Source of the DNA: a virus
Strand: one strand, 5' to 3'
Virus record (IMG/VR): IMGVR_UViG_3300031566_000434
Span: 1-21,540 of that record
Length of the DNA: 21,540 nucleotides
Under the pieces are notes generated by a model. The model was not told the origin of the DNA. It saw only the letters and a program-made list of their open reading frames with translations, and searched no databases. Within the stretch, counting starts at the first letter, position 1. Every line of letters starts with the position of its first letter. This document shows positions 5,099 to 21,248 of the stretch, piece after piece. Position numbers and translations under genes: made by a program.

Positions 5099-5114
5099 AT
5101 TATAAATTTATAAT
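5099..5114. promoter_or_regulatory. Perfect 16-bp palindrome, candidate operator for the RHH protein
   Basis: The sequence attataaatttataat is its own reverse complement over all 16 bases. It lies between the GTATTTATT element and the ATG of the RHH gene and overlaps the last bases of that element. A repressor bound here would block initiation. Because the DNA is very AT-rich, one or two perfect 16-bp palindromes are expected by chance in a window this size; the position is what makes this one notable. Confidence 0.45.
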
Positions 5115-5120
5115 AAATAC
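5111..5120 (-). promoter_or_regulatory. GTATTTATTA promoter-like element, replication/sigma operon
   Basis: A copy of the shared GTATTTAT(A/T) element, ending about 17 bases before the ATG of the RHH gene. It has T rather than A at the ninth base, like the copy at 19844-19853 and unlike the copies before baseplate genes. No -35-type match is visible upstream. If it is a promoter, it would drive the operon that ends in the sigma factor gene. Confidence 0.5.
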
Positions 5121-5175
5121 TAAGAAATTATAAAAAATTATAGATTTCGAGAATTATTTTGATTTTTCTTTTGAT

Positions 5176-5946
5176 TTAAAAATCAAGAGCAAAAACAATT
5201 GTTCTGGCAATTGTTGCGTTTTTAGCTACAGGGTCATTTAATTTTCCTATCGCCACAAGGTTTTTATTACTATCGTATATACCAATTTCAGTAAAATAAA
5301 CAGTTTCAAGTCCATCCCATGTTGAATTTGATGTTGAGTTAAATTCGTTTAGGGGTAAATTAATAGTAATATCAGTAGTATAAACATCTGCTTTGATTTT
5401 AGTAGAAACATTCCCAAAGAAATATGTAGCTTCTCCAAAAGGTAAATTATTAGTTTCGGTTTCTCCGGGGTAGTTTAAATAATTCAAATTATATGGTATA
5501 TATATTAATGGATTAGTGTATTGCAATAATGGTATTTTAAATACAACGCTTGTGAGTTTAGAGGCAGTTAAAAAGAAAGTACTACCACTACTATATCCAC
5601 TTACTTGAGGGGTAATGTTAATCTGTTTCCATTGTGTTGGGTCGGGTTCAACATCAGCAAAACTATTAAAAGCACCGTTACTTACCATTTGTACTAATGC
5701 ATGAATTTTATGTGCCGTATATCCTGTACCAATAGGATTTATAATACCAGCAGCAATTTCACCAGCTAAGAATTTAAAATCGTTTGAATCTGGGAAATTT
5801 AAGTTAATTTCCTGAACATAAGGGTTATTTGTACCCAAAGCAATTTTTTTAATGTAATTACAATGAATTGCCTGACTATATCCATTAACTGTTTCACCAG
5901 TTATTGGTAATAAGATATATGATATGAATACTGTATTTCCTTCCAT
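5176..5946 (-). CDS. Phage tail/baseplate structural protein, 256 aa
   Basis: Probable virion protein of the distal tail. The sequence is rich in N, T, I and beta-forming residues and low in lysine, as in tail-fibre and baseplate proteins. The C-terminal part (ETVYFTEIGIYDSNKNLVAI then GKLNDPVAK, about 214-240) matches a pattern common in phage tail-fibre/collar-type proteins ('i-t-E-i-G-l-Y-D-x-x-x-x-L-v-a-i-g'). It has a single cysteine near the N-terminus (AIHCNYIKK). It follows the 555-aa tail protein by 11 bases and is the last gene of that unit; the intergenic region after it carries the next promoter-like element. I cannot say whether it is fibre, fibre adaptor or baseplate plug. Confidence 0.75.
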   Translation of the reverse strand: MEGNTVFISYILLPITGETVNGYSQAIHCNYIKKIALGTNNPYVQEINLNFPDSNDFKFLAGEIAAGIINPIGTGYTAHKIHALVQMVSNGAFNSFADVEPDPTQWKQINITPQVSGYSSGSTFFLTASKLTSVVFKIPLLQYTNPLIYIPYNLNYLNYPGETETNNLPFGEATYFFGNVSTKIKADVYTTDITINLPLNEFNSTSNSTWDGLETVYFTEIGIYDSNKNLVAIGKLNDPVAKNATIARTIVFALDF

Positions 5947-5957
5947 TATTTCATTTT

Positions 5958-7625
5958 TTAGTTTTCAGCAATAGTCCCACCAAAACAATAATCGTTTGTG
6001 TGATTAACATCAGTAATCGTTGCTGTTACAACACATGAACCCGCAAGAAAATAAAATGTAGATGTTTTACCTGCTAAACAACAACTATTAATATAATCAT
6101 ATGCACAAATACTAAGCATACCACCAGTAGAGGTTGTACATGCACATCCACGTGCCCTATAACCAGTGCTTACTACATTGTTTCGACTTATGGTAGTACC
6201 AACATTAAACGGTATCCATCCTGTTGACGTTCCACCTGATACATAACAATAACATTGAGATACAATACAAACTTTACCTACATCTTGATTAATTGGTGTT
6301 GTCCAAGTAACTGTTGTAGTTGGTGTTGAAGATGTTGTTTCTGTTCCAATACCAGCATAATAATCAGGAACTGTCCATGACCTATTTGATTTATAAGACA
6401 TAGCAAAAAGCAATTCTTGGTCTTCAATTACAAATATTTTTAAATCAGGAAACATTTTTCCAACAACAAATCCTTCTGAATCTGCAAGGTCATAGTAATA
6501 AAGATTAAGACCTGTGAGTAATTGTTGTCCACCAATTGGTGCTAATGTAATTCCAAGTGTTTTTGTTGTTGATTTATGCCACATTATTGTTGGAATATCC
6601 ACAGTTGGTGTAGTTTGAAGAAATCCTTCTCCGTATACATTTGCTGGACTACTATTCGTATAATGAATCACACCTAATTTCTTTATAGTTGCTGCTTGAT
6701 TTTGAATATATGACACAAATCCACCAAATGTTCTATTTTTAAATTGTGTATATTTCAAATTACCAGCTTGTACTCCAGCAATTTCTTCGGTATAAATTAT
6801 TGATAAATTCCAATAAGGAAAAACGATTGTAGGACATTGATTATTTTCCAGAAAACTTAATACAGTTTCATTAAGATAATCTGTTGGTGACATATTAAGA
6901 ATAGTATCACCACTATAAGTAAGTTCATTATAAAGAATCATTGCACCAGCATTATATGCAGGTGTTGGAGATACATTATCAATATCAGGTAATTCCCTAT
7001 CAACACGTACTGTGACACTTCCACTTGCTAATGTACCACCACTAATTTCAGTAATTCTATAAAATAAATGTGGTCTAGGTTCAATTTTATTAACAGTGAA
7101 TCCTGTTGTATGTTCAGTATACGCCCATTTAATAAATAGAATATCACCAACAGCAGGTTCTTCACCACTTGTGCCATATGTTGGTGTTTTCAATAGCGTT
7201 AAAACTTTCCCACCACCAACAGATTGCATATCAATCATTACGTCTGGTTGTTTTATGTGATTACTATCTATAACATATTCAGTATTGTTATTAGTAAAAA
7301 AACCCAGAGATTCAACTTGATTTTCCACCTGATATGCCGTTGAAGGTACGTTTGTCATTTCAACATATGGGTCACCGCTTAAATTTCTTGGTATAAAAGA
7401 TATTAAATTAGCATTTTTATCCGCAGGTCTTAATATTGTAGAATTAAATGCGGTATATTCACTATCACCATCCTCAACAATTGCTTTATTGAATTTATAA
7501 TCAATTTCACTATCACCAATAGCATAGTATTTAAAATCCAAACTACCTTTAGATAGTAATTCTCTACCTTTTGATGTTAATTTGATGTTTAATACTACGG
7601 GGTCTTTTTTTCCTATAAATGCCAT
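5958..7625 (-). CDS. Tail/baseplate protein with cysteine-rich C-terminal module, 555 aa
   Basis: Structural protein of the distal tail. The N-terminus, VLNIKLTSKGRELLSKGSLD and then FKYYAIGDSEIDY (about 11-43), is a pattern I recognise from tail/baseplate proteins of Bacteroidota phages. The middle is beta-rich. A T/S/P-rich linker (about 427-445: TETTSSTPTTTVTWTTP) leads to a C-terminal ~104-residue module with ten cysteines (C453, C458, C460, C494, C496, C507, C515, C516, C531, C547). Several cysteines alternate along apparent strands (VCIVSQCYCYVS; RGCACTT). The rest of the protein has about one cysteine. The module shares DYINS flanked by cysteines with the C-terminus of the 1568-aa neighbour. 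A GTATTTATAG element sits 16 bases upstream of the ATG. The module could be a receptor-binding or metal-holding tip; that is inference. Confidence 0.82.
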   Translation of the reverse strand: MAFIGKKDPVVLNIKLTSKGRELLSKGSLDFKYYAIGDSEIDYKFNKAIVEDGDSEYTAFNSTILRPADKNANLISFIPRNLSGDPYVEMTNVPSTAYQVENQVESLGFFTNNNTEYVIDSNHIKQPDVMIDMQSVGGGKVLTLLKTPTYGTSGEEPAVGDILFIKWAYTEHTTGFTVNKIEPRPHLFYRITEISGGTLASGSVTVRVDRELPDIDNVSPTPAYNAGAMILYNELTYSGDTILNMSPTDYLNETVLSFLENNQCPTIVFPYWNLSIIYTEEIAGVQAGNLKYTQFKNRTFGGFVSYIQNQAATIKKLGVIHYTNSSPANVYGEGFLQTTPTVDIPTIMWHKSTTKTLGITLAPIGGQQLLTGLNLYYYDLADSEGFVVGKMFPDLKIFVIEDQELLFAMSYKSNRSWTVPDYYAGIGTETTSSTPTTTVTWTTPINQDVGKVCIVSQCYCYVSGGTSTGWIPFNVGTTISRNNVVSTGYRARGCACTTSTGGMLSICAYDYINSCCLAGKTSTFYFLAGSCVVTATITDVNHTNDYCFGGTIAEN

Positions 7626-7640
7626 TTATTTTTTACTTTT

Positions 7641-7650
7641 CTATAAATAC
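7641..7650 (-). promoter_or_regulatory. GTATTTATAG promoter-like element before the 555-aa tail gene
   Basis: Sits in the short gap between the stop of the 1568-aa gene and this gene, about 16 bases upstream of the ATG. It is identical over ten bases to the copy before the 1568-aa gene. The sequence from it to the ATG is A-rich with no Shine-Dalgarno. If transcription begins 6-7 bases past the element, the mRNA leader would be only about 10 bases. Confidence 0.55.
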
Positions 7651-7670
7651 AAGTAATTTTATTTTAATTT

Positions 7671-10600
7671 TTAATGTTGGGATTCCGATATTGCCAATAA
7701 AGTGCTTGGTTTACAAATTTCAAATATTCCACCACATTGATTACTAATTGAACTTAATGTAATTTTAGCAGAGTTAATATAATCATCACATACATTATCA
7801 AAATGACTACATGCTGTTACACAAACACAATAATTACTTGGAATACATAATGAATCTATTTTTATTGTATTTATTGTAGAACACCAATTAGTATCTGCAA
7901 CTAATGCTTCCACATGACTATGGGCGAACCCACAAGGAATAGTACTTCTCATAATACAAGAATCAGCAGTAATTGGTTGCGCTAATCCCACTGATGTTGA
8001 AGAACGTGTACAAGCTGTATATGTTAAACAGAATCCCATTCCTGAAGTTATTGGTTTACTTGTTGATATTTTACCACCGAATGAATTCAATCCTTCTGGA
8101 ATAGAACTATCATCACTAATACTATCAATATAAACATAGATAGGACCGTCTGTTTGCTTAGTTTCAACAGTACCATATCCAACAGCACTTATAGCATCAT
8201 CATTCCTTGCAAATGCTCTATAATATACTGTTGTGTTTGATGGTAATTTAGTTGCATCTTTATCCCAATAAACACCAGTACCAATATCACTAATTGTTGA
8301 ATCTTTATATATTCCAGAAGGTAATATTGATGTTAATTTCAAATTTGTTGATGTACCTAATGATGGATTTGTTGTCCACAATATACCATATTCTACGATT
8401 ATTGTTGGGTTTCCTTTATTTCCAATCACATTATTAGTAACAGGGAAACTAGTTTCGGTTGCAGTTCCAGCTAAACCAGTTTTAACTGTTGGTGCTATTG
8501 GTGGAAGCTCAAGAGTTGTTTTTTGTTTAATTGTACCATAATATGTAATACCATTAACAATCATATATGCACGATATTGATATAAAGTATCTGGTGAAAG
8601 ACCAGTTATTGTTTTAGTAAAATAATTAACTCCTAGCGGTCCTGACGTAGGTGGACTTGGTTGTAACAGCCAACTACCAGTTATACCTGTTCTATATTGC
8701 ATTGCATAATATTGAATATCTCCATAACGCACAATATTTTGACCACCAGTTGCAACTATTGTTGTTTGAGTTACAGATGTTGCTATTGTGGTTTCAATTG
8801 ATGGTGGTGGTAGTGGTGCAACAGGAGTATGAATTAAACGAGTATTGCCAGTATAACCAGTCGATGGTGATTGAACAAATGCACGATATTGATAATCAGT
8901 ATCATATTCCAAACCAGTTAATGTCATACTAAAGTGATTAAGAGTAAGCGGGTCTGTGTCTGATATTCTTGTCCAATCGTTTCCCACATCTTCTACTTCA
9001 AAATCAATTCCTTCAGTTAAATTCTCTAAACCAATTGGTTCAGAAGTACTATAATAATAATTAATTTTCTTATAATCAATACCATATTTACTAAGTTCTT
9101 CATATCCAATAATATTTTTACCACCAGTTGTAAGACTACCAAGAACACCTAGAGTCGTTTCAACATATAATTGTGTTGGTGGCGGTGGGGGTGGTAAAAT
9201 TTGTTGAACTATTTGAAATTTACTTCCATCATCACCAAAAAACTGAACCAAATCATTACCTCTCATATCTTTTGTAAGATTTGATGGATTTGCTACATTA
9301 ACACCTCTTTTATACCAATGTTTTTGTTTAGTAAATACACTATTTCTAATTAATAATCCACCTCTTTTAAGAATTATAGTTGCGGGTAATAATTGGTCAA
9401 CAAATCTCTGAAAGAAAGCATTATATTTACTTAAAAATGGATATAAATTCTGAAAAGTATATCCATTAGAGTGTAATGGATTATCATCTGAAAGTAATGC
9501 CCTATCCAAATAATCTTCATATATTCTTAATAACGCTGGATACCATCCACCTTTAAAATCAGTTACCACTTTTCTGTTTCTAGCATTAATCATTTTTCTT
9601 TGAATCAATTCAATAAATTCAAGAAATGATAAATTACTTATATCACCAAGACCAAAATTATCTCCAACAACTGGTGTAAATGCACTACTATCTGCAACAA
9701 GATAGTAAGTACTGATTACATCTCCATATTTTATACCTTTCGGTAAAAATATTTCGAAAGGATTTTGTACATTAATATTATAATCCAAATTTGGTTCTAA
9801 TGCAATTCCATTAATTAAAAACTTAACATCATTTGTATTTGTTACTTTATAGTTAAGTTTATATACATATTTATTCGCACTAGCATTAAAATAAATTTTA
9901 CTTGTATTGAAACTATCAACTCTAACAACCTCACTTCTTAAATTAATATCATTACTACCTGCAACTTCCATATATGCAACTTGTACTGTAGGATTTGAAT
10001 TAAGAAAAGTAACAATATCTGGATTCTGAATAATAATTCGATTTGTTCCACCACTTGAATTTGCTGGGTCAAGAATATAATCCGCAGTAAATTGGGAAGT
10101 ACCTTTGGTAAGTGCAATTCCATTAATTGTTAATTGTAAATCGCCTCGTGGATAACTTGGTAAGTCGAGATAAATACTACCATTTGTTGCTTGAAGTCTG
10201 GTGACAATATATTGAATAGTAATTCCACTAATTGATGATGTTGTTCCAGAATTAACAAAAGTTGCTTGAATAACATCTCTTCTACCACCACCATTAATAG
10301 CAGTTCCACTAATTGTAAAAGTATTTGCAGTATAATTAATAATATAATCTGCTTGATAATCAGTTAATGTTGTGCCAGTTTTAGGTGCATTTAATAATAT
10401 ACCATTATAACGAACCTCAAAATCTCCTTGATTATTATATGTTGTTGGAATCTGAAAAGTATTCTCTGAATCAGCATATGGTAATGATATGTTTACATAT
10501 GAATATGGTAAAGTATAACCACTTGAATTAGCTTCAAAATCTTTTTGAATGTATTCCCAAACATCATATTCAATACCACGTGCAGTATCCAGTGCAACAT

Positions 10601-12377
10601 CAATTTCTTTTGTATTGATTACAAGTTTACTATCTTCTTGATAATATTGTGGTGTCGTGTTGTGTATTCTGGTTGTCCCACTTGCTTGTACCCACGATTT
10701 TTTATTATCAACCGTTGCAGATAAATTAAAACCAGCCATTCTAAAAACATCAAGATATGCTTGACCACTATCTGTATTTCCACTAAGCTGAAAATAGAAA
10801 TCATTTGTTTCAAGAGGTGCTATAGGATAACCACCAATATCGTATGGTAATGAATTTGAAGGAAACTCTGCTTGTGTTAAGGGAACAGTATTAGGATTTA
10901 TTTTCCCATCAACAGTATAAACATATTCAGTTATGTTAATGAATGGTTCTGGTATTCCAATCAACAAAAACATTGATTTTATTGCATGACGAGTACCTTT
11001 TGATTTCCAGAAATAACTAGTATTATTTATTATTCTTCTCCAGAGTTCAATATCGATTTCTGCTGGTAGAATATTATCATTTAAGTTTCTTTCATTATCA
11101 TCAATAGTTAAAAACCCATCAACTAATTCTTTTTCATTTACTAATGAAAAATAATCCCAACCAAAAGTATTTGACATATTTTTAATCAGTTGGTCTGGAA
11201 TATTATTGATTTTATCATAAGTTACCTTATTAATATGTACTAATGAATCAATAAATTGTCTCATTTGGTCAAATTCCCTACCATAGATTCTTAATAACTT
11301 ATTCACCTTACCTTCTTCAGTAAAGTCATAAGTTTTAAGTGAGGATGGAGTTAGAAATCTAGCTATTAAGTCTGTTTTAATTTTATCATATTTAGCACCA
11401 ATAGTTAAAACAATTTTCAAAAATTTCTGATAAGCTGGTGTGTTAATATCGATATTATATTTATCACCAGTTGCCCAAAGTATTTGCGAATCACTATATA
11501 CTATTTTTCCATCTTCGAGTAATGTTGGGTCTTTCAAAATAAAAACGAATCCGTCCGTTTCTTCTCTTTGAGAAATAATGTTTTGTTCATATGAACTAAG
11601 AAGTGCTCTAAATTCTTCAAAAATAATATTATTTGGTCTAATGTGGAAATCAAGACTACCTGTCGTACCAATACCATTTAAAACAAATGGATTACCTTCA
11701 ACTTCTAATTTTATGTGATTTGCTTTTGTTATACCAGAAACAAACACACCTGTACTATCCACACTATTCCCACTATAACCAACAATAGGATACAGAGTAT
11801 CACCTTCAAGAGTTGACCATATTACATATTTTAAATAAGAATCATTTAAATTCTTTAGTTCATCATCATCAGGAATAGTTTCATTACCTTCATTATATAT
11901 AATTCCAAAAGTATTATCAAGATATTCAACTGGAACATAAAATGTTGTAGTGTTTGAAACTTCATTATATGAATATTCTTTATATGTTGTGTTACCACCT
12001 TGTATTGATTGTGAATTAGCGAATAATGAACCGGGGTAATTTAAAATAATATTCTGAATACTTACCCTTAAAAATTCGTAAGCTGAACCAAATCTAACAA
12101 AAGTGTTTAAATCAGACTTATCAAGATTAAGTACAACATTTGTACTATAATAATCAAAAATTTCAGACTGTTTTTCATTAACACCAAGCGTTTCTAATGT
12201 AACAGGACGAACAAACGAACTTAACGTATTGGTATAATCAGTAGTTTCTTTCCCATCGAAATTTGTTGTGACAAAAAACTTTCCAAATGAAAATATAGTA
12301 TTAGAAGGAGTATCGTTAAAATACCCACCATTTAAGTTACCATTAAGTTGATTATTTATTACCTTTACTTTTGCCAC
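7671..12377 (-). CDS. Giant baseplate wedge/tail protein (P2 gpI-like core, three ~101-aa repeats, Fn3-type domains, Cys-rich tip)
   Basis: Very large (1568 aa) structural protein starting at GTG. Around residues 445-480, LWRRIINNTSYFWKSKGTRH followed by AIKSMFLLIGIPE resembles the P2 gpI-like / T4 gp7-type baseplate wedge motif. Three beta-domains repeat at ~101-residue spacing, each with an N-G-I-x-L core: RYNGILLN (~646), TINGIALT (~747), LINGIALE (~849). Another conserved-looking block, FVDQLLPATIILKRGGLLIR (~1010-1030), precedes a polyproline hinge (QILPPPPPPTQ, ~1060). Then come about four Fn3-like domains (starting near 1067, 1187, 1290, 1408), two showing T-G-L-x-x-D-T-x-Y-Q-Y-R-A-(F/Y). 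The last domain carries 12 cysteines after a cysteine-free stretch of ~1449 residues. Its own GTATTTATAG element lies 14 bases upstream. It probably joins the baseplate to fibres or surface contacts. Confidence 0.88.
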   Translation of the reverse strand: MAKVKVINNQLNGNLNGGYFNDTPSNTIFSFGKFFVTTNFDGKETTDYTNTLSSFVRPVTLETLGVNEKQSEIFDYYSTNVVLNLDKSDLNTFVRFGSAYEFLRVSIQNIILNYPGSLFANSQSIQGGNTTYKEYSYNEVSNTTTFYVPVEYLDNTFGIIYNEGNETIPDDDELKNLNDSYLKYVIWSTLEGDTLYPIVGYSGNSVDSTGVFVSGITKANHIKLEVEGNPFVLNGIGTTGSLDFHIRPNNIIFEEFRALLSSYEQNIISQREETDGFVFILKDPTLLEDGKIVYSDSQILWATGDKYNIDINTPAYQKFLKIVLTIGAKYDKIKTDLIARFLTPSSLKTYDFTEEGKVNKLLRIYGREFDQMRQFIDSLVHINKVTYDKINNIPDQLIKNMSNTFGWDYFSLVNEKELVDGFLTIDDNERNLNDNILPAEIDIELWRRIINNTSYFWKSKGTRHAIKSMFLLIGIPEPFINITEYVYTVDGKINPNTVPLTQAEFPSNSLPYDIGGYPIAPLETNDFYFQLSGNTDSGQAYLDVFRMAGFNLSATVDNKKSWVQASGTTRIHNTTPQYYQEDSKLVINTKEIDVALDTARGIEYDVWEYIQKDFEANSSGYTLPYSYVNISLPYADSENTFQIPTTYNNQGDFEVRYNGILLNAPKTGTTLTDYQADYIINYTANTFTISGTAINGGGRRDVIQATFVNSGTTSSISGITIQYIVTRLQATNGSIYLDLPSYPRGDLQLTINGIALTKGTSQFTADYILDPANSSGGTNRIIIQNPDIVTFLNSNPTVQVAYMEVAGSNDINLRSEVVRVDSFNTSKIYFNASANKYVYKLNYKVTNTNDVKFLINGIALEPNLDYNINVQNPFEIFLPKGIKYGDVISTYYLVADSSAFTPVVGDNFGLGDISNLSFLEFIELIQRKMINARNRKVVTDFKGGWYPALLRIYEDYLDRALLSDDNPLHSNGYTFQNLYPFLSKYNAFFQRFVDQLLPATIILKRGGLLIRNSVFTKQKHWYKRGVNVANPSNLTKDMRGNDLVQFFGDDGSKFQIVQQILPPPPPPTQLYVETTLGVLGSLTTGGKNIIGYEELSKYGIDYKKINYYYSTSEPIGLENLTEGIDFEVEDVGNDWTRISDTDPLTLNHFSMTLTGLEYDTDYQYRAFVQSPSTGYTGNTRLIHTPVAPLPPPSIETTIATSVTQTTIVATGGQNIVRYGDIQYYAMQYRTGITGSWLLQPSPPTSGPLGVNYFTKTITGLSPDTLYQYRAYMIVNGITYYGTIKQKTTLELPPIAPTVKTGLAGTATETSFPVTNNVIGNKGNPTIIVEYGILWTTNPSLGTSTNLKLTSILPSGIYKDSTISDIGTGVYWDKDATKLPSNTTVYYRAFARNDDAISAVGYGTVETKQTDGPIYVYIDSISDDSSIPEGLNSFGGKISTSKPITSGMGFCLTYTACTRSSTSVGLAQPITADSCIMRSTIPCGFAHSHVEALVADTNWCSTINTIKIDSLCIPSNYCVCVTACSHFDNVCDDYINSAKITLSSISNQCGGIFEICKPSTLLAISESQH

Positions 12378-12390
12378 AGTTTATGATTTA

Positions 12391-12400
12391 CTATAAATAC
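12391..12400 (-). promoter_or_regulatory. GTATTTATAG promoter-like element before the giant baseplate gene
   Basis: Located in the 87-base gap after the 299-aa structural gene, ending 14 bases upstream of the GTG start. The ten bases are identical to those before the 555-aa gene. No clear terminator hairpin with a T-run is seen in this gap, so read-through from the upstream unit is possible. The rest of the gap is AT-rich and otherwise featureless apart from a short CTAATTAG palindrome. Confidence 0.55.
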
Positions 12401-13662: not shown

Positions 13663-13911
13663 TTAAAATAAGTTACCACCACCTATAGGTAAGTGAGATT
13701 CTAAAGTATATGAATATGGAATATAATTATCAGTATATTTAATACCACCAATATAATATACAACCATATGATTTTCAACAGAATTATTATAATCCACACC
13801 ATCCCTTGTTAGTGAACCATCACCAAAATATTGACGTGAAAATGGCACACCCACAGCATACTTTTTCAATTCATTTAATCTACTATTAACTGTGCTACCT
13901 CTTACGTACAT
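13663..13911 (-). CDS. Small structural-operon protein, 82 aa, beta-rich
   Basis: Unrecognised 82-aa protein with a basic N-terminus (MYVRGSTVNSRLNELKKYAV) and a G/Y/N-rich remainder (YFGDGSLTRDGVDYNNSVEN; VVYYIGGIKYTDNYIPYSYT), suggesting a compact beta structure as in virion proteins. Its ATG lies 10 bases inside the end of the upstream glycosyltransferase gene, so it is translationally linked to it. Equal in length to the next gene, but I see no clear sequence similarity between them. Structural role inferred from the operon. Confidence 0.72.
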   Translation of the reverse strand: MYVRGSTVNSRLNELKKYAVGVPFSRQYFGDGSLTRDGVDYNNSVENHMVVYYIGGIKYTDNYIPYSYTLESHLPIGGGNLF

Positions 13912-14774
13912 ATCTCTTTTAAATATTTAGAATTTTTCATCACATCTTTCTCATATTTTTCAATATAATCAATTGCTTCAGGAAATTCTTTAATTACTTT
14001 ACTTCTAATTAATTTAACATAGTTCGGCATATATTTAGTTTCTAAATACATGTGAGTATATTTCATCATATTTCCAGTGATAGCAGGACCGTTCTTAATT
14101 ATTGATTTATGAGGTAATATCTCATATACTTTGAAACCAAACTTTAATTTCGATAAATAAAGTGCTAGTTCTTCACAAACCATTCCAATATAATTAATTT
14201 TGAATTTCTTTTCAGTCATAAAACCCTTCTTTATTGCTTCAGCTATTTGAATATAATCATCTTTTATTCTCATTCTCAACCCAACAGTACCACAACTATA
14301 ACATCGACCATCATATAATTTGGGGTCAAAAATATTATCTTTAATTAGATAGTTTTTATATAAATTCACATAGGTGTTTGAATAATTAGTTTTTTTCGGT
14401 ATTTTATCTTGAACAATAGCATCATAATTATTTGAATTAATGAATGATGAAAATAAATCGTCAAAAATGAAAACATCTGAATCAACATGAATAAAATCAT
14501 TACTCATTTGCTTTATAATATCAACCTTATAATATGACCAAAACTTAAATTTATTTTCATTTTCAATTAAATTAATTTTATCATAAGGTATATATTTCAC
14601 TAATAATTCATGTCCTTTCTTATCACAATACATGGTGATTTTCCCATAATATTTTTTTAATGTAAAATAGCTTAATAAGAACGAATAAAAATTTAAAACT
14701 TTCTTATTGTTTTCACTTTTCTTTAAATAAGGACTACCTTCATTTAAATGTGCATATGATTGTATTATTTCCAT
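13902..14774 (-). CDS. Glycosyltransferase (DUF6734-like, GT-A type with DxD)
   Basis: Probable sugar transferase. The N-terminal layout MEIIQSYAHL ... YSFLLSYFTLKKYYGKITMY, then CDKKGHELL and KYIPYDKI matches DUF6734-type glycosyltransferases (strand, aligned helix, 'Y-x-K-I-x-x-Y-x-D-x-x-G'). FIHVDSDVFIFD (D98 and D100) is the metal/nucleotide-sugar-binding DxD motif. Further conserved-looking parts are YSCGTVGLRMR and ITGNMMKYTHMYLETKYMPN near the C-terminus. At 290 aa it has the usual length. It is embedded in the baseplate operon, overlapping the next gene by 10 bases, so it is expressed with virion proteins; it may decorate tail proteins or alter host glycans. Acceptor and sugar are unknown. 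Confidence 0.8.
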   Translation of the reverse strand: MEIIQSYAHLNEGSPYLKKSENNKKVLNFYSFLLSYFTLKKYYGKITMYCDKKGHELLVKYIPYDKINLIENENKFKFWSYYKVDIIKQMSNDFIHVDSDVFIFDDLFSSFINSNNYDAIVQDKIPKKTNYSNTYVNLYKNYLIKDNIFDPKLYDGRCYSCGTVGLRMRIKDDYIQIAEAIKKGFMTEKKFKINYIGMVCEELALYLSKLKFGFKVYEILPHKSIIKNGPAITGNMMKYTHMYLETKYMPNYVKLIRSKVIKEFPEAIDYIEKYEKDVMKNSKYLKEICT

Positions 14775-15298: not shown

Positions 15299-15574
15299 TT
15301 ATTGGTATGTAAATTTATCGTTATTATAATCTGTAAAAATAGAACCATCATTATCCGTCAGATAATATGTTATTTCTGGCGGTACTGGTGGAACTGGAGG
15401 TATTGGTGAAACATATTCAACATATGCATCAAAAAATCCAAAATCATGTGCTAATTGTTTCAATCCAAATTTTAAATGGTAAATAGCATATAAATTAGGA
15501 ATAATTATTACACCACCAGTATTTGTTTTTCCTGTAGTTACTGCTTGTAATATTGTTTTTTTTAATCTCTCCAT
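15299..15574 (-). CDS. Small proline-hinged structural protein, 91 aa
   Basis: A 91-aa protein with a basic N-terminus (MERLKKTILQAVTTGKTNTG), a hydrophobic middle, a proline hinge (SPIPPVPPVPPEI, about 56-68) and an acidic, aromatic C-terminus ending in Y-L-T-D-N-D-G-S-I-F-T-D-Y-N-N-D. The hinge suggests an extended linker between two small folds. The start codon shares a base with the stop of the gp6-like gene (TAATG), implying coupled translation and near-stoichiometric production with the baseplate wedge. Not recognised as a named family; virion linker is an inference. Confidence 0.75.
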   Translation of the reverse strand: MERLKKTILQAVTTGKTNTGGVIIIPNLYAIYHLKFGLKQLAHDFGFFDAYVEYVSPIPPVPPVPPEITYYLTDNDGSIFTDYNNDKFTYQ

Positions 15575-17421
15575 TATTCAACATTCTTCCTCAACAATAC
15601 TTTAATATCTTTTTCTGGGTATTTTATTTCAAACATTGAATCCCTTGTTGAATAAATTGTGTTATTTTCAATTTTAATTTCACCTGTGCTAGTATTCGTA
15701 ATTGCTTGTGCAATTGTATTATTTGAATACTGGTCACCTACCTTATTAAACACTTTAATATTAATAATATTAATAACACCATTTACTCCACTAATCTTAT
15801 TTCCCAATTTACTTAAAAATAAATCTTGATTCATTTCATGAGAATTAATATCCAAATAATCTCTAACTATTGAAATTATATTATTGGCAATCTGATTATC
15901 TGCGGTATTAGTAACATAAACATCAATTTCAAAACCTAAATTATATATTTTACCATTGTTGATTTCAATATAATCATTAACCATCCTAAATTCCGTTAAA
16001 TATTCAGCAATATTAGTATTCATAATTGATGTACTACTGTTATCTAATTTACCTTCAGCATTAATACCTAGAGTTGAAATCAACACTTTATTATTTATTT
16101 TAAATGTGTTAATTCTGAATGGTGAACCATACTTCCCGGGCATTTTATAAACCTGTATTTTATAATCAGTTAAACTAACATCCCTATTTTGACTAGAAAA
16201 ATTATATTTAACTAAATACCTTATTTGTTCTGTGGTTAATCCATCGTTTCCACCAATAGCTGGAATAGGATTTGTTGTATTTAAACTTCTACGAACAGCT
16301 TGATTATATTCACTACGAGAACCATTAATTTCTAAATTATATGCACCAAGTTGTGTTAACACATCTGCTCCAATATTAGAAGCGATACCACCACCTGTCC
16401 TATATTTAACAAATAATGTATGATTTGCTTTTAATCTCTCACCCAAAGCTGTATTATTTAAAAAGTTTTCAAGAAAATAACGATTACTAACTCCTTCTTT
16501 TAATAAACCATCTTTAAAAGCATTGACATCTGAATCACCAGAACCAAAAGTTAATTTGCAGAAACCATTAGGTGTATATTCTTTTAAGAATTTTTTTGTA
16601 ACATCAATCCATTTACCAACCTTTAAATTATTAGTGTTGGTATTTGCAGATGAACTATATGAATCTTCAACAAAAACACGTTGTTGTGCCAAAGCATCAA
16701 CCTCATAAAATTTTTCACCTAATTGTACATAATCAACTTCCGTTGGATTTGTTGACCAATTAGTACCTTGCATCAAATATACACTTTCAATTTCAATAAC
16801 ATCTGGGTCAGGAAGCGTAAATGAAAAAAATGGTGTAACATCACTAATATTAATAATTTTCTTGAAAGTACTTGTACCACCATTTATGACAACTTCTCTT
16901 TTTGTAACATTATAACTAACAGGAATACCATTAGTATCAAGTACGGGTATAATACTTCGATTAGGGTCACCTAAACTACTAAGCGGTGAATTCCAATCAA
17001 TATTTTCTTGTGTTTCAAATATTTTACCACCACCAAGTACTTGTGCACCCGCCTTTAAAACTGGATAGTAAGTAGTATTTGGTGTATTTCCAAGAACAGG
17101 CACACTAACAGTGAAATCAACAACAGTAACACTTGGTCTTCTTGCTGGGATATTGAATCCCATATTTTTTGCTATATTTACAATACTAGCTCTTTGTTGT
17201 GCATATTCTAATTGAGTTTCTTGAAATGCTCTATCAGTATTAACACTAAGATTGTTAGTAACACCTGCGTTTAAATCGATAAGCATAGCACCAACGTTTG
17301 AATCAGTGAAATCTGAAAATATTTCAGAATATGTTTGACGAATCAAACCAATTAAGTCGGTTCTAATTTCTCCGAAAGTTCTGCTTCCATATTGAATTAC
17401 ATTTGTTATTTCTGTTGCCAT
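15574..17421 (-). CDS. Baseplate wedge protein, T4 gp6 / Baseplate_J-like
   Basis: Core baseplate wedge subunit that forms the ring around the tail tube. The 615-aa protein starts with the pattern of T4-like gp6 proteins: FGEIRTDLIGLIRQTYSEIF then SDFTDSNVGAMLIDLNAGVT (16-55), followed by QETQLEYAQQRASIVNIAKN and MGFNIPARRPS (67-97), where 'Q-x-R-x-S-x-x-x-x-A-x-x-x-G-Y/F' is typical of Baseplate_J. Further on, NRDVSLTDYKIQVYKMPGKY and GSPFRI (about 418-443) matches a block conserved in T4-like gp6. No cysteine is obvious. It lies 13 bases after the gp25-like gene, as in many contractile-tail loci where gp25 and gp6/J are adjacent. Very likely correct. Confidence 0.9.
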   Translation of the reverse strand: MATEITNVIQYGSRTFGEIRTDLIGLIRQTYSEIFSDFTDSNVGAMLIDLNAGVTNNLSVNTDRAFQETQLEYAQQRASIVNIAKNMGFNIPARRPSVTVVDFTVSVPVLGNTPNTTYYPVLKAGAQVLGGGKIFETQENIDWNSPLSSLGDPNRSIIPVLDTNGIPVSYNVTKREVVINGGTSTFKKIINISDVTPFFSFTLPDPDVIEIESVYLMQGTNWSTNPTEVDYVQLGEKFYEVDALAQQRVFVEDSYSSSANTNTNNLKVGKWIDVTKKFLKEYTPNGFCKLTFGSGDSDVNAFKDGLLKEGVSNRYFLENFLNNTALGERLKANHTLFVKYRTGGGIASNIGADVLTQLGAYNLEINGSRSEYNQAVRRSLNTTNPIPAIGGNDGLTTEQIRYLVKYNFSSQNRDVSLTDYKIQVYKMPGKYGSPFRINTFKINNKVLISTLGINAEGKLDNSSTSIMNTNIAEYLTEFRMVNDYIEINNGKIYNLGFEIDVYVTNTADNQIANNIISIVRDYLDINSHEMNQDLFLSKLGNKISGVNGVINIINIKVFNKVGDQYSNNTIAQAITNTSTGEIKIENNTIYSTRDSMFEIKYPEKDIKVLLRKNVE

Positions 17422-19865: not shown

Positions 19866-21248
19866 TTATTGAATTACTAACCCCCTAATGACCACTGATT
19901 TATAAAAATTAGCACGTTCTTTTGTCACATATTCTAAATTATATTTTTCTTTGAAATCCTCATATAATTGTTCACCTAGACGTTTACGTAAATCAGCATC
20001 TAATATCAACTGTTTCAGATATTTCTTCCAATATTTATGGGCATTTTTCTTATTAGGGATTAATACACAATTTTCCATGTGCCTACCATGTACATTATAT
20101 GGTGGAATATCACTACAAACAATAGGAAGTTTTCTTGTCCAACACTCAACTTGTTTCAAATTAGATTTTTTTATGTTAAAATCATTATCTGCAAGTGGTG
20201 CTAAAACAATATCTGTTTCATCTAATACTTGAGCATAAGTATTAGCTTTCTGAGTCCATCTTCTTCCAAAATTACCTTCATTTTCATACCTAACATTCCT
20301 TTCAAAATTCATAAGCCATTGAAGATAATCTGGATTTTCAATTAAATGGTGGTTATCGGTTAAGATTTTTTCATAAATAAGATATACGCTTTCCTTAGAC
20401 TTAATGTCTCGTTGTTTACTACTAAAAACTTTATCTCTATATTTTTCTTTAATATCATCAGGAAGTCTAGGGATTTTATCTACATCACCTCTTGATTTAT
20501 TAATAGCTTTCACTACTTCATGTACCCAAAGTCCTCTTTTTTCAAGCTCAGTTTTGAAATCTTGATTAAAAGTAATATCAGTTGTACTACCTTCAGTATC
20601 CCAACCAGCAATAATTATTTTAAATTTATCTCTAGTCTCTGAATTTGCTTGTAAATAATTTATAGTATTTTCTAATTGCTGAACATCACCCATGTGAGAA
20701 CTACCGGCTGCATATGTTATTCTTACTAAACCATCAGGGTCTGGTTTCCAATTATTCTGGAATTGTTTCATCCATTTAGGGTCAATACTATTGAAATAAA
20801 CTTGAACATTATCTTTACCAGTTATTTTACGAATTTCATCAGCAAAAATATCTGTTGTTGTTGTGACATAATCAGCAATTTTTAGATTCTCTAAAATAGG
20901 AACATGTAATTGTCTTTCAATACTCATACCATAAAATGGATGTTGTTTATGAAGTTTCCAATAGTCATCAATATCAACAATTAAAATAGTTCCAGCTTTT
21001 TTGAGTTCTGTCGCTAATTTTAACATTTGAGCAGTATCACTTATAAATTGACGATGATAATGTATGATGTGAAATGATTTAAGATAATCAACGATTTTAG
21101 GGTCATTAAAATCAAGCTGTGGATTTATTTCAACATAAAAATCATCACTATGATTTCTTTCCAGTTCCATTGCAGGTGTTAGAGTTCGAAAATAATTTAC
21201 ACCTGCTCCATCCAAATTATAAAACAATATTCTAATTTTTCCGTTCAT
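19866..21248 (-). CDS. GT-B fold glycosyltransferase (GT4-like)
   Basis: Probable glycosyltransferase of 460 aa with two Rossmann-like halves. The N-terminal half has a glycine-rich nucleotide-sugar loop, YNLDGAGVNYFR (10-21), VDIDDYW (91-97), and a second domain opened by YAAGSSHMGD (179-188). The C-terminal half has ETDIVLAPLADNDFNIKKSN then LKQVECWTRKLPIVCSDIPP, corresponding to the GT4 pattern 'A-P-L-x-x-x-x-F-N-x-x-K-S-x-L-K-x-x-E-x-x-x-x-x-x-P-V-V-x-S', where K and E contact the sugar-nucleotide. A ~100-residue charged insertion (about 230-320) separates the two halves. It is the first gene after the right-hand terminator. In phages such enzymes may glycosylate virion proteins, DNA or host surface sugars; nothing here decides which. 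Confidence 0.85.
   Translation of the reverse strand: MNGKIRILFYNLDGAGVNYFRTLTPAMELERNHSDDFYVEINPQLDFNDPKIVDYLKSFHIIHYHRQFISDTAQMLKLATELKKAGTILIVDIDDYWKLHKQHPFYGMSIERQLHVPILENLKIADYVTTTTDIFADEIRKITGKDNVQVYFNSIDPKWMKQFQNNWKPDPDGLVRITYAAGSSHMGDVQQLENTINYLQANSETRDKFKIIIAGWDTEGSTTDITFNQDFKTELEKRGLWVHEVVKAINKSRGDVDKIPRLPDDIKEKYRDKVFSSKQRDIKSKESVYLIYEKILTDNHHLIENPDYLQWLMNFERNVRYENEGNFGRRWTQKANTYAQVLDETDIVLAPLADNDFNIKKSNLKQVECWTRKLPIVCSDIPPYNVHGRHMENCVLIPNKKNAHKYWKKYLKQLILDADLRKRLGEQLYEDFKEKYNLEYVTKERANFYKSVVIRGLVIQ

Follow-up and report, generated by a model that had tools for sequence, protein, structure and literature searches.

Cysteine-rich C-terminal tips with fluid cysteine positions on baseplate-region proteins of a jumbo phage clade

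Introduction

In extracellular domains, few residues are normally as rare as cysteine or as strongly conserved in position. Structures such as phage tip domains, Fn3-like stalks and YadA-head fibres are already known, and among them the lambda protein gpJ is the central fibre of a siphophage. Another lambda protein, gpL, possesses a cysteine-bearing domain, located on the outer surface of the tail tip, whose cysteines ligate a cluster (PMC10721106). In Bdellovibrio, fibre tips include beta-sandwich domains carried by prey-recognising proteins (PMC10769870); that article does not mention the protein Bd1399, and it describes a single disulphide in Bd1334.

Here, we analyse a 21.5-kb IMG/VR virus record, referred to as the window (21,540 nucleotides, the whole stretch of DNA, in which all positions are given unless a contig is named). 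The window encodes two neighbouring proteins, A and B, which both end in a cysteine-rich domain. We propose, with a probability of about 0.55, that selection throughout the clade favours exposed thiols on the surfaces that contact the receptor; the chemistry may be thiol exchange, metal bridging or modification.

Results

Two cysteine-rich tips in a baseplate region

Protein A (1568 aa, 7671..12377, minus strand) comprises an N-terminal part, Fn3-like repeats (approximately residues 1060-1407, 8157..9200, minus strand) and a tip domain (residues 1408-1568, 7674..8156, minus strand). The repeats, recognised by their sequence pattern and by a weak, sub-threshold Pfam match only, are devoid of cysteine. 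Indeed, the translation contains none in residues 1-1449 and then twelve, at 1450, 1456, 1474, 1482, 1499, 1511, 1517, 1519, 1523, 1530, 1548 and 1555 (codons at 7713..8030, minus strand), i.e., within the range (C1450 to C1555) given by a first-pass annotation. The chance of finding these 12 cysteines in the last 161 residues is around 1e-7 with a 1% background, and around 0.002 at the random-codon rate of 2.7% given by the A+T-rich base composition of the window. An assembly frameshift, which the annotation had raised as a possible origin of this end, was rejected, as was any other assembly artefact. The C-terminus is genuine because a second IMG/VR contig, L002, matches window 7454-11598 with 99.93% DNA identity (three mismatches, no gaps) and because relatives of A align across the entire C-terminus (around 30-38% identity). 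An alternative decoding of TGY is also unlikely, since the primase-like gene 172-1257 retains a CPxC...CxxC zinc-finger pattern. On the other hand, the last domain had been taken for an Fn3-like one. With the Pfam fn3 profile, no match was obtained for the tip or for any of 44 relatives, and the domain belongs instead to a family of its own, predicted from the AF2 model and from 59 family domains to form a beta-sandwich of 9-10 strands.

The description of a cysteine-rich tip in A was thus correct but incomplete, as the next gene shares this feature. Protein B (555 aa, 5958..7625, minus strand) consists of a conserved part of around 422 residues followed by a cysteine-rich C-terminal domain. 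Its tip (residues 424-555, 5961..6356, minus strand), a predicted beta-sandwich according to AF2 and alignment, carries ten cysteines within the last 103 residues of the protein, between C453 and C547 in the translation (codons at 5985..6269, minus strand).

The window belongs to a phage with a contractile tail and covers its baseplate region, because the gene at 15574..17421 (minus strand) matches gp6-like baseplate wedge subunits (phrog_219, E 2.5e-21) of the contractile-tail baseplate cluster; this gene is located around 3 kb upstream of A in the reading direction. A glycosyltransferase gene (19866-21248, phrog_7162) is also found near the tail genes, as is, judged by eye, a second glycosyltransferase-like gene (13902-14774). 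A and B therefore lie inside a tail/baseplate gene cluster, and both combine a conserved body (around 50-78% identity across relatives) with a rapidly diversifying C-terminal domain (10-40% identity, or replaced), as receptor-binding tips do.

Cysteine content is kept while positions turn over

Using iterated HMM searches, we united 59 tip domains, including that of the window, in one family. They contain on average 6.5% cysteine (2-17 residues per around 130), and in A proteins carrying such tips, residues 1-1000 contain 9 cysteines in 20,000 codons (0.045%). The near absence of cysteine from A bodies across relatives (0.045-0.09%) suggests an active avoidance outside the tip.

The positions of these cysteines are fluid. 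In the family alignment, whose columns are approximate at 10-30% identity, 86 of the 141 well-filled columns hold a cysteine in some member and only two do so in at least half of the members. Between relatives, cysteine conservation is average (0.53, compared to 0.70 for proline and 0.64 for glycine). Related tips with 61-73% identity share 3-7 cysteines and differ by 3-8, and among five closer relatives (54-82% identity), several positions differ in most pairs. Between such close relatives, cysteine is exchanged with Ser (TCA), Gln (CAA), His (CAT) or Val (GTT). In the B tip, one cysteine is invariant in 8/8 aligned members. The first-pass annotation had proposed a homologue alignment as a check, a lack of conservation of the cysteines speaking against its reading. 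Such a lack is observed for the positions and not for the content, which refutes a model with fixed sites and leaves the idea of a special tip standing.

The most extreme cysteine content was encountered in a 340-kb relative, L124 (IMGVR_UViG_3300028666_000022). Its tip protein (contig positions 3949-5943) has 52 cysteines and closes in a (Ser-Cys)n run, in which both serine (TCT and AGT) and cysteine codons (TGT and TGC) are mixed. A neighbour of 267 aa (9424-10224) has CGCCSCTCCCSCSCC and likewise CGCCSCTCCCSCSCCSCGCC, and a separate protein of 294 aa (265113-265994) ends with SCCSCCCCC. In a collection-wide scan, Ser-Cys runs were mostly simple repeats out of frame.

Predicted fold and exposure of the tips

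The AF2 model of the A tip is a confident beta-sandwich (pLDDT 92, pTM 0.84), and the B tip was modelled with a pLDDT of 86 and a pTM of 0.79. The folds closest to the A tip are those of Bdellovibrio Bd1399 (8okh; Z 7.8, 3.3 A, 128 residues aligned) and of the distal portion of lambda gpJ that binds the receptor (Z 6.7, 4.1 A, 128 residues aligned), and the B tip best resembles streptococcal pilins (Z 8.0). In the VIA-align lists obtained for both tips, none of the remaining families was clearly set apart from the others. These middling matches reflect a common arrangement and not kinship.

The residues found in place of cysteine in the tip alignment columns have a mean hydropathy of -0.97, which lies between the values of the Gln and the Asp/Glu columns. 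As these columns are otherwise polar, the cysteines are probably exposed. Moreover, strand alternation would place C1450, C1456, C1517, C1519 and C1523 (C43, C49, C110, C112 and C116 of the model) on a polar strand face. Together with the repeat frameworks described below, this argues for positions that are exposed and not in the core. That the surfaces of A and B contact the host is suggested by the gene context, by the location of the tips at the C-terminus and by the fold matches, the latter at Z values below 8 that can denote a common arrangement. The earlier proposal of a special host-facing tip is supported by the place of the domain at the C-terminus in a baseplate region, by the weak fold matches and by the cysteine enrichment observed throughout the family.

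Distribution among relatives

Relatives of A and B were found on many IMG/VR contigs of up to 372 kb, and related jumbo phages carry cysteine-rich C-terminal tip domains on dozens of contigs, also up to 372 kb. All family data are metagenomic; the INPHARED phage records contain no match to A, to B or to the cysteine-rich proteins of contigs G025 and L106. In a genome scan for hosts, one relative was located on a 19-kb contig within a Bacteroidota MAG, a weak hint at a host among the Bacteroidota.

Across all relatives, cysteine amounts to 0.09% in A bodies and 1.9% in A tails, and to 0.39% in B bodies and 2.1% in B tails. The cysteine-rich ends are carried by A, by a separate distal gene following A, by B or by extra genes nearby, and some relatives lack a cysteine-rich A tip (e.g., A of L009, L014 and L017). 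In L036, L050, L052, L061-L065, L072 and L127, A stops around residue 1229-1240 in the numbering of the window, and a separate following gene encodes the distal Fn3-like region with its tip; each half then often bears its own cysteine-rich tip. Gene B is duplicated in tandem (two copies) in L086, L093-L095, L100 and L125.

Cysteines at variable positions of YadA-head-like fibres

Five long contigs were read in pieces, and further long proteins that resemble fibres turned out to be rich in cysteine in these phages as well. Two of them, distinct from A and B, match PF05658 (YadA head) above the cut-off (G037, 89320-95337; G039, 179066-181150). In the 14-residue repeats of this type, called SHAEG (G037 and G001), cysteines are located almost only at the variable positions 6, 7, 9, 11, 13 and 14, the framework positions totalling 0-1 cysteine in all proteins. 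At position 9, cysteine is even the commonest residue in two G037 proteins (14/41 and 20/68).

As a control, 79 loci with similar repeats were fetched and 56 fibres of other phages compared. Cysteine occupies 12.8% of the variable positions in the family and 0.1% in these 56 fibres, a comparison which involves three family proteins from two genomes and in which the Fisher P treats repeats as independent. Protein by protein, the three family members range from 9.7 to 15%, and the controls never exceed 1.5%; in a cultured Flavobacterium phage, none of 60 variable positions is a cysteine. Apart from cysteine, family and control fibres have similar residues at these positions. Cysteines do not cluster at stacked positions of the beta-roll and are spread at around one per repeat, a distribution that is not fully random (combined P 0.004). 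Another SHAEG-repeat protein of G037 (L290, 133001-153000) has no cysteine at all, so not every fibre is decorated.

Disulphides and metal sites

Once released into an oxidising medium, the cysteines of a domain could pair with one another and stiffen the tip, the positions of the pairs being free to drift. Such disulphide-stabilised tips, which we regard as doubtful, would account for the close spacing of the cysteines on one strand face and for the invariant cysteine of the B tip. The parity of cysteine counts in 52 tip domains (33 even, 19 odd) shows a slight even excess that could also hint at pairing. However, we observed no covariation between cysteine columns (5 pairs with z>3, for a null of 4.05), and the tip family displays neither conserved nor co-varying pairs of the kind expected for a disulphide knot. 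The merely average conservation of cysteine, below that of Pro and Gly, and the unclustered distribution in the beta-rolls, with around one cysteine per repeat, speak against pairing as well.

By analogy with the iron-sulphur domain of lambda gpL, the exposed cysteines could otherwise form a metal-thiolate surface, binding soft metals (Zn, Fe, Cu) in clusters or as bridges to the receptor. Indeed, the domain on the outer surface of gpL harbours an oxygen-sensitive [4Fe-4S] cluster (PMC10721106), and the CxC and CC spacings, the (SC)n run and the CGCCSCTCCC stretch of L124 look metallothionein-like. This explanation is rather unlikely for the tips, in which CxC spacing is enriched only mildly (z 1.9) and no ligand set is conserved: a four-cysteine set of the gpL type is not found, cysteine being present in at least half of the members at 2 of 141 columns. 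In the beta-rolls, cysteines are dispersed and not clustered. Hence, a metal-binding or disulphide-stabilised, locked tip, as first suggested for A, is not borne out by cysteines that are poorly conserved in position, do not co-vary and appear exposed rather than buried in the core. Fixed metal sites or disulphides predict conserved or co-varying cysteines, and as none were found, exposed thiols acting in host contact are favoured.

Modification, relaxed avoidance and codon-level origins

The cysteines could also serve to attach a post-translational modification (S-glycosylation, a lipid or another group) for which exact positions matter little. The position-independent enrichment, the Ser-Cys runs and the glycosyltransferase gene near the tail genes would suit this improbable explanation, but glycosyltransferases are common in large phages and we identified no modification motif or dedicated S-transferase.

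Equally improbable is a relaxed counter-selection, in which exposed cysteines would be harmless in anoxic habitats and drift to mutational equilibrium. Some of the source samples are presumably anoxic, and control fibres avoid cysteine so strongly (0.1%) that the contrast could partly be a lost avoidance. However, the 6.5% of the tips and the 12.8% of the beta-roll variable positions exceed the 3.3% expected from random codons; at two to four times this rate, relaxed avoidance alone is insufficient. Moreover, the cysteine-free N-terminal part of A indicates that avoidance persists, one SHAEG protein of G037 is free of cysteine, and the same genome encodes a small subunit of class I ribonucleotide reductase (RNR), an enzyme that normally needs O2. 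As an oxygen indicator, the RNR class proved uninformative (no NrdD, one class I). Thioredoxin was detected in 9 of 24 contigs with no clear link, and an Evr1_Alr search gave no match anywhere, controls included, and is therefore uninformative.

Mutational bias as a source of the tip cysteines was rejected by a frame test. In-frame TGT and TGC reach 64.8 per 1000 codons in the tips and 0.5 in the N-terminal part, while the off-frame TGY counts are 9.1 versus 9.7 and 73 versus 57 per 1000. As TGY is enriched in the coding frame only and nearly equal off-frame, selection acts on the residues. TGC usage in the tips is close to that of other C-ending codons. At the variable positions of G037 (L287, 13320-19337), Ser prefers AGT and Arg CGT, unlike in the rest of the genome and in controls; this lean towards neighbours of TGT may reflect a turnover through cysteine. 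A diversity-generating retroelement writing TGT codons into variable regions, which the variability of these positions and this preference for codons one step from TGT might evoke, can practically be discarded: no reverse transcriptase (RVT_1) was found in 39 related contigs of up to 372 kb, some possibly incomplete, no template/variable repeat pair was found in the A/B region (window 5100-12400), Ser and Arg codon choice is the same in tips and N-terminal part, and the Gln and Lys present at beta-roll variable positions imply codons that are not NNY-limited.

Discussion

We favour a selection for exposed thiols on the contact surfaces of these phages. In this view, A and B would be located near the baseplate of a jumbo myovirus, probably one that infects Bacteroidota, and would face the host. 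The tip at the C-terminus of each would be a modular beta-sandwich, with selection for many cysteines acting on its exposed surface, the remainder of A being held almost free of them. In the same phages, fibre folds unrelated to these tips, such as the YadA-head-like beta-rolls, also carry cysteines at their variable and apparently exposed positions. The selected trait may then be the thiol-bearing contact surface itself, with exact positions turning over in the arms race with the receptor. Exposed thiols could aid adsorption by direct contact, by reversible disulphide or persulphide exchange or by metal-ion bridging, acting in contact rather than in building internal disulphides. More tentatively, surface thiols could constitute a general adhesive chemistry of this jumbo-phage clade, in which many cysteines of interchangeable position on several unrelated folds would bond reversibly with the host envelope, either covalently as disulphides or persulphides or through metal bridges, and make adsorption redox-dependent.

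If thiols do play a part in adsorption, phages would have a possibly covalent mode of host recognition that is sensitive to redox conditions. This would matter for the ecology of phages where oxygen is absent and for binder design, as well as for the isolation of such phages, which oxidation may inactivate. In the papers searched, a set whose coverage leaves out most subscription journals and all preprints, we found no precedent for cysteine-rich phage fibres, and the position-free decoration of several fibre folds within one clade is unreported there.

Each of the closest systems shares part of this organisation. The A tip finds its best structural match in a Bdellovibrio protein, Bd1399 (8okh, Z 7.8), and the trimeric fibre tips of Bdellovibrio include beta-sandwich domains as well, but there is no sequence relation. 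Like A, lambda gpJ is a protein of the tail end in which Fn3-like domains precede a C-terminal beta-sandwich (Z 6.7), but it is a central fibre, and we found neither sequence homology between them nor a counterpart to the cysteine decoration of A. Lambda gpL carries four conserved cysteines at one site, whereas the A and B tips carry many non-conserved ones. A further comparison is provided by the YadA-head (SHAEG) fibres of other phages, which have the same 14-residue repeat, the same variable positions and the same Pfam family (PF05658) as the G037 and G039 fibres. This scaffold is nearly without cysteine in the 56 other phage fibres (0.1% of variable positions) and reaches 12.8% in the family. 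Across this large clade of phages, cysteine is common, apparently exposed and positionally fluid on proteins that presumably face the host.
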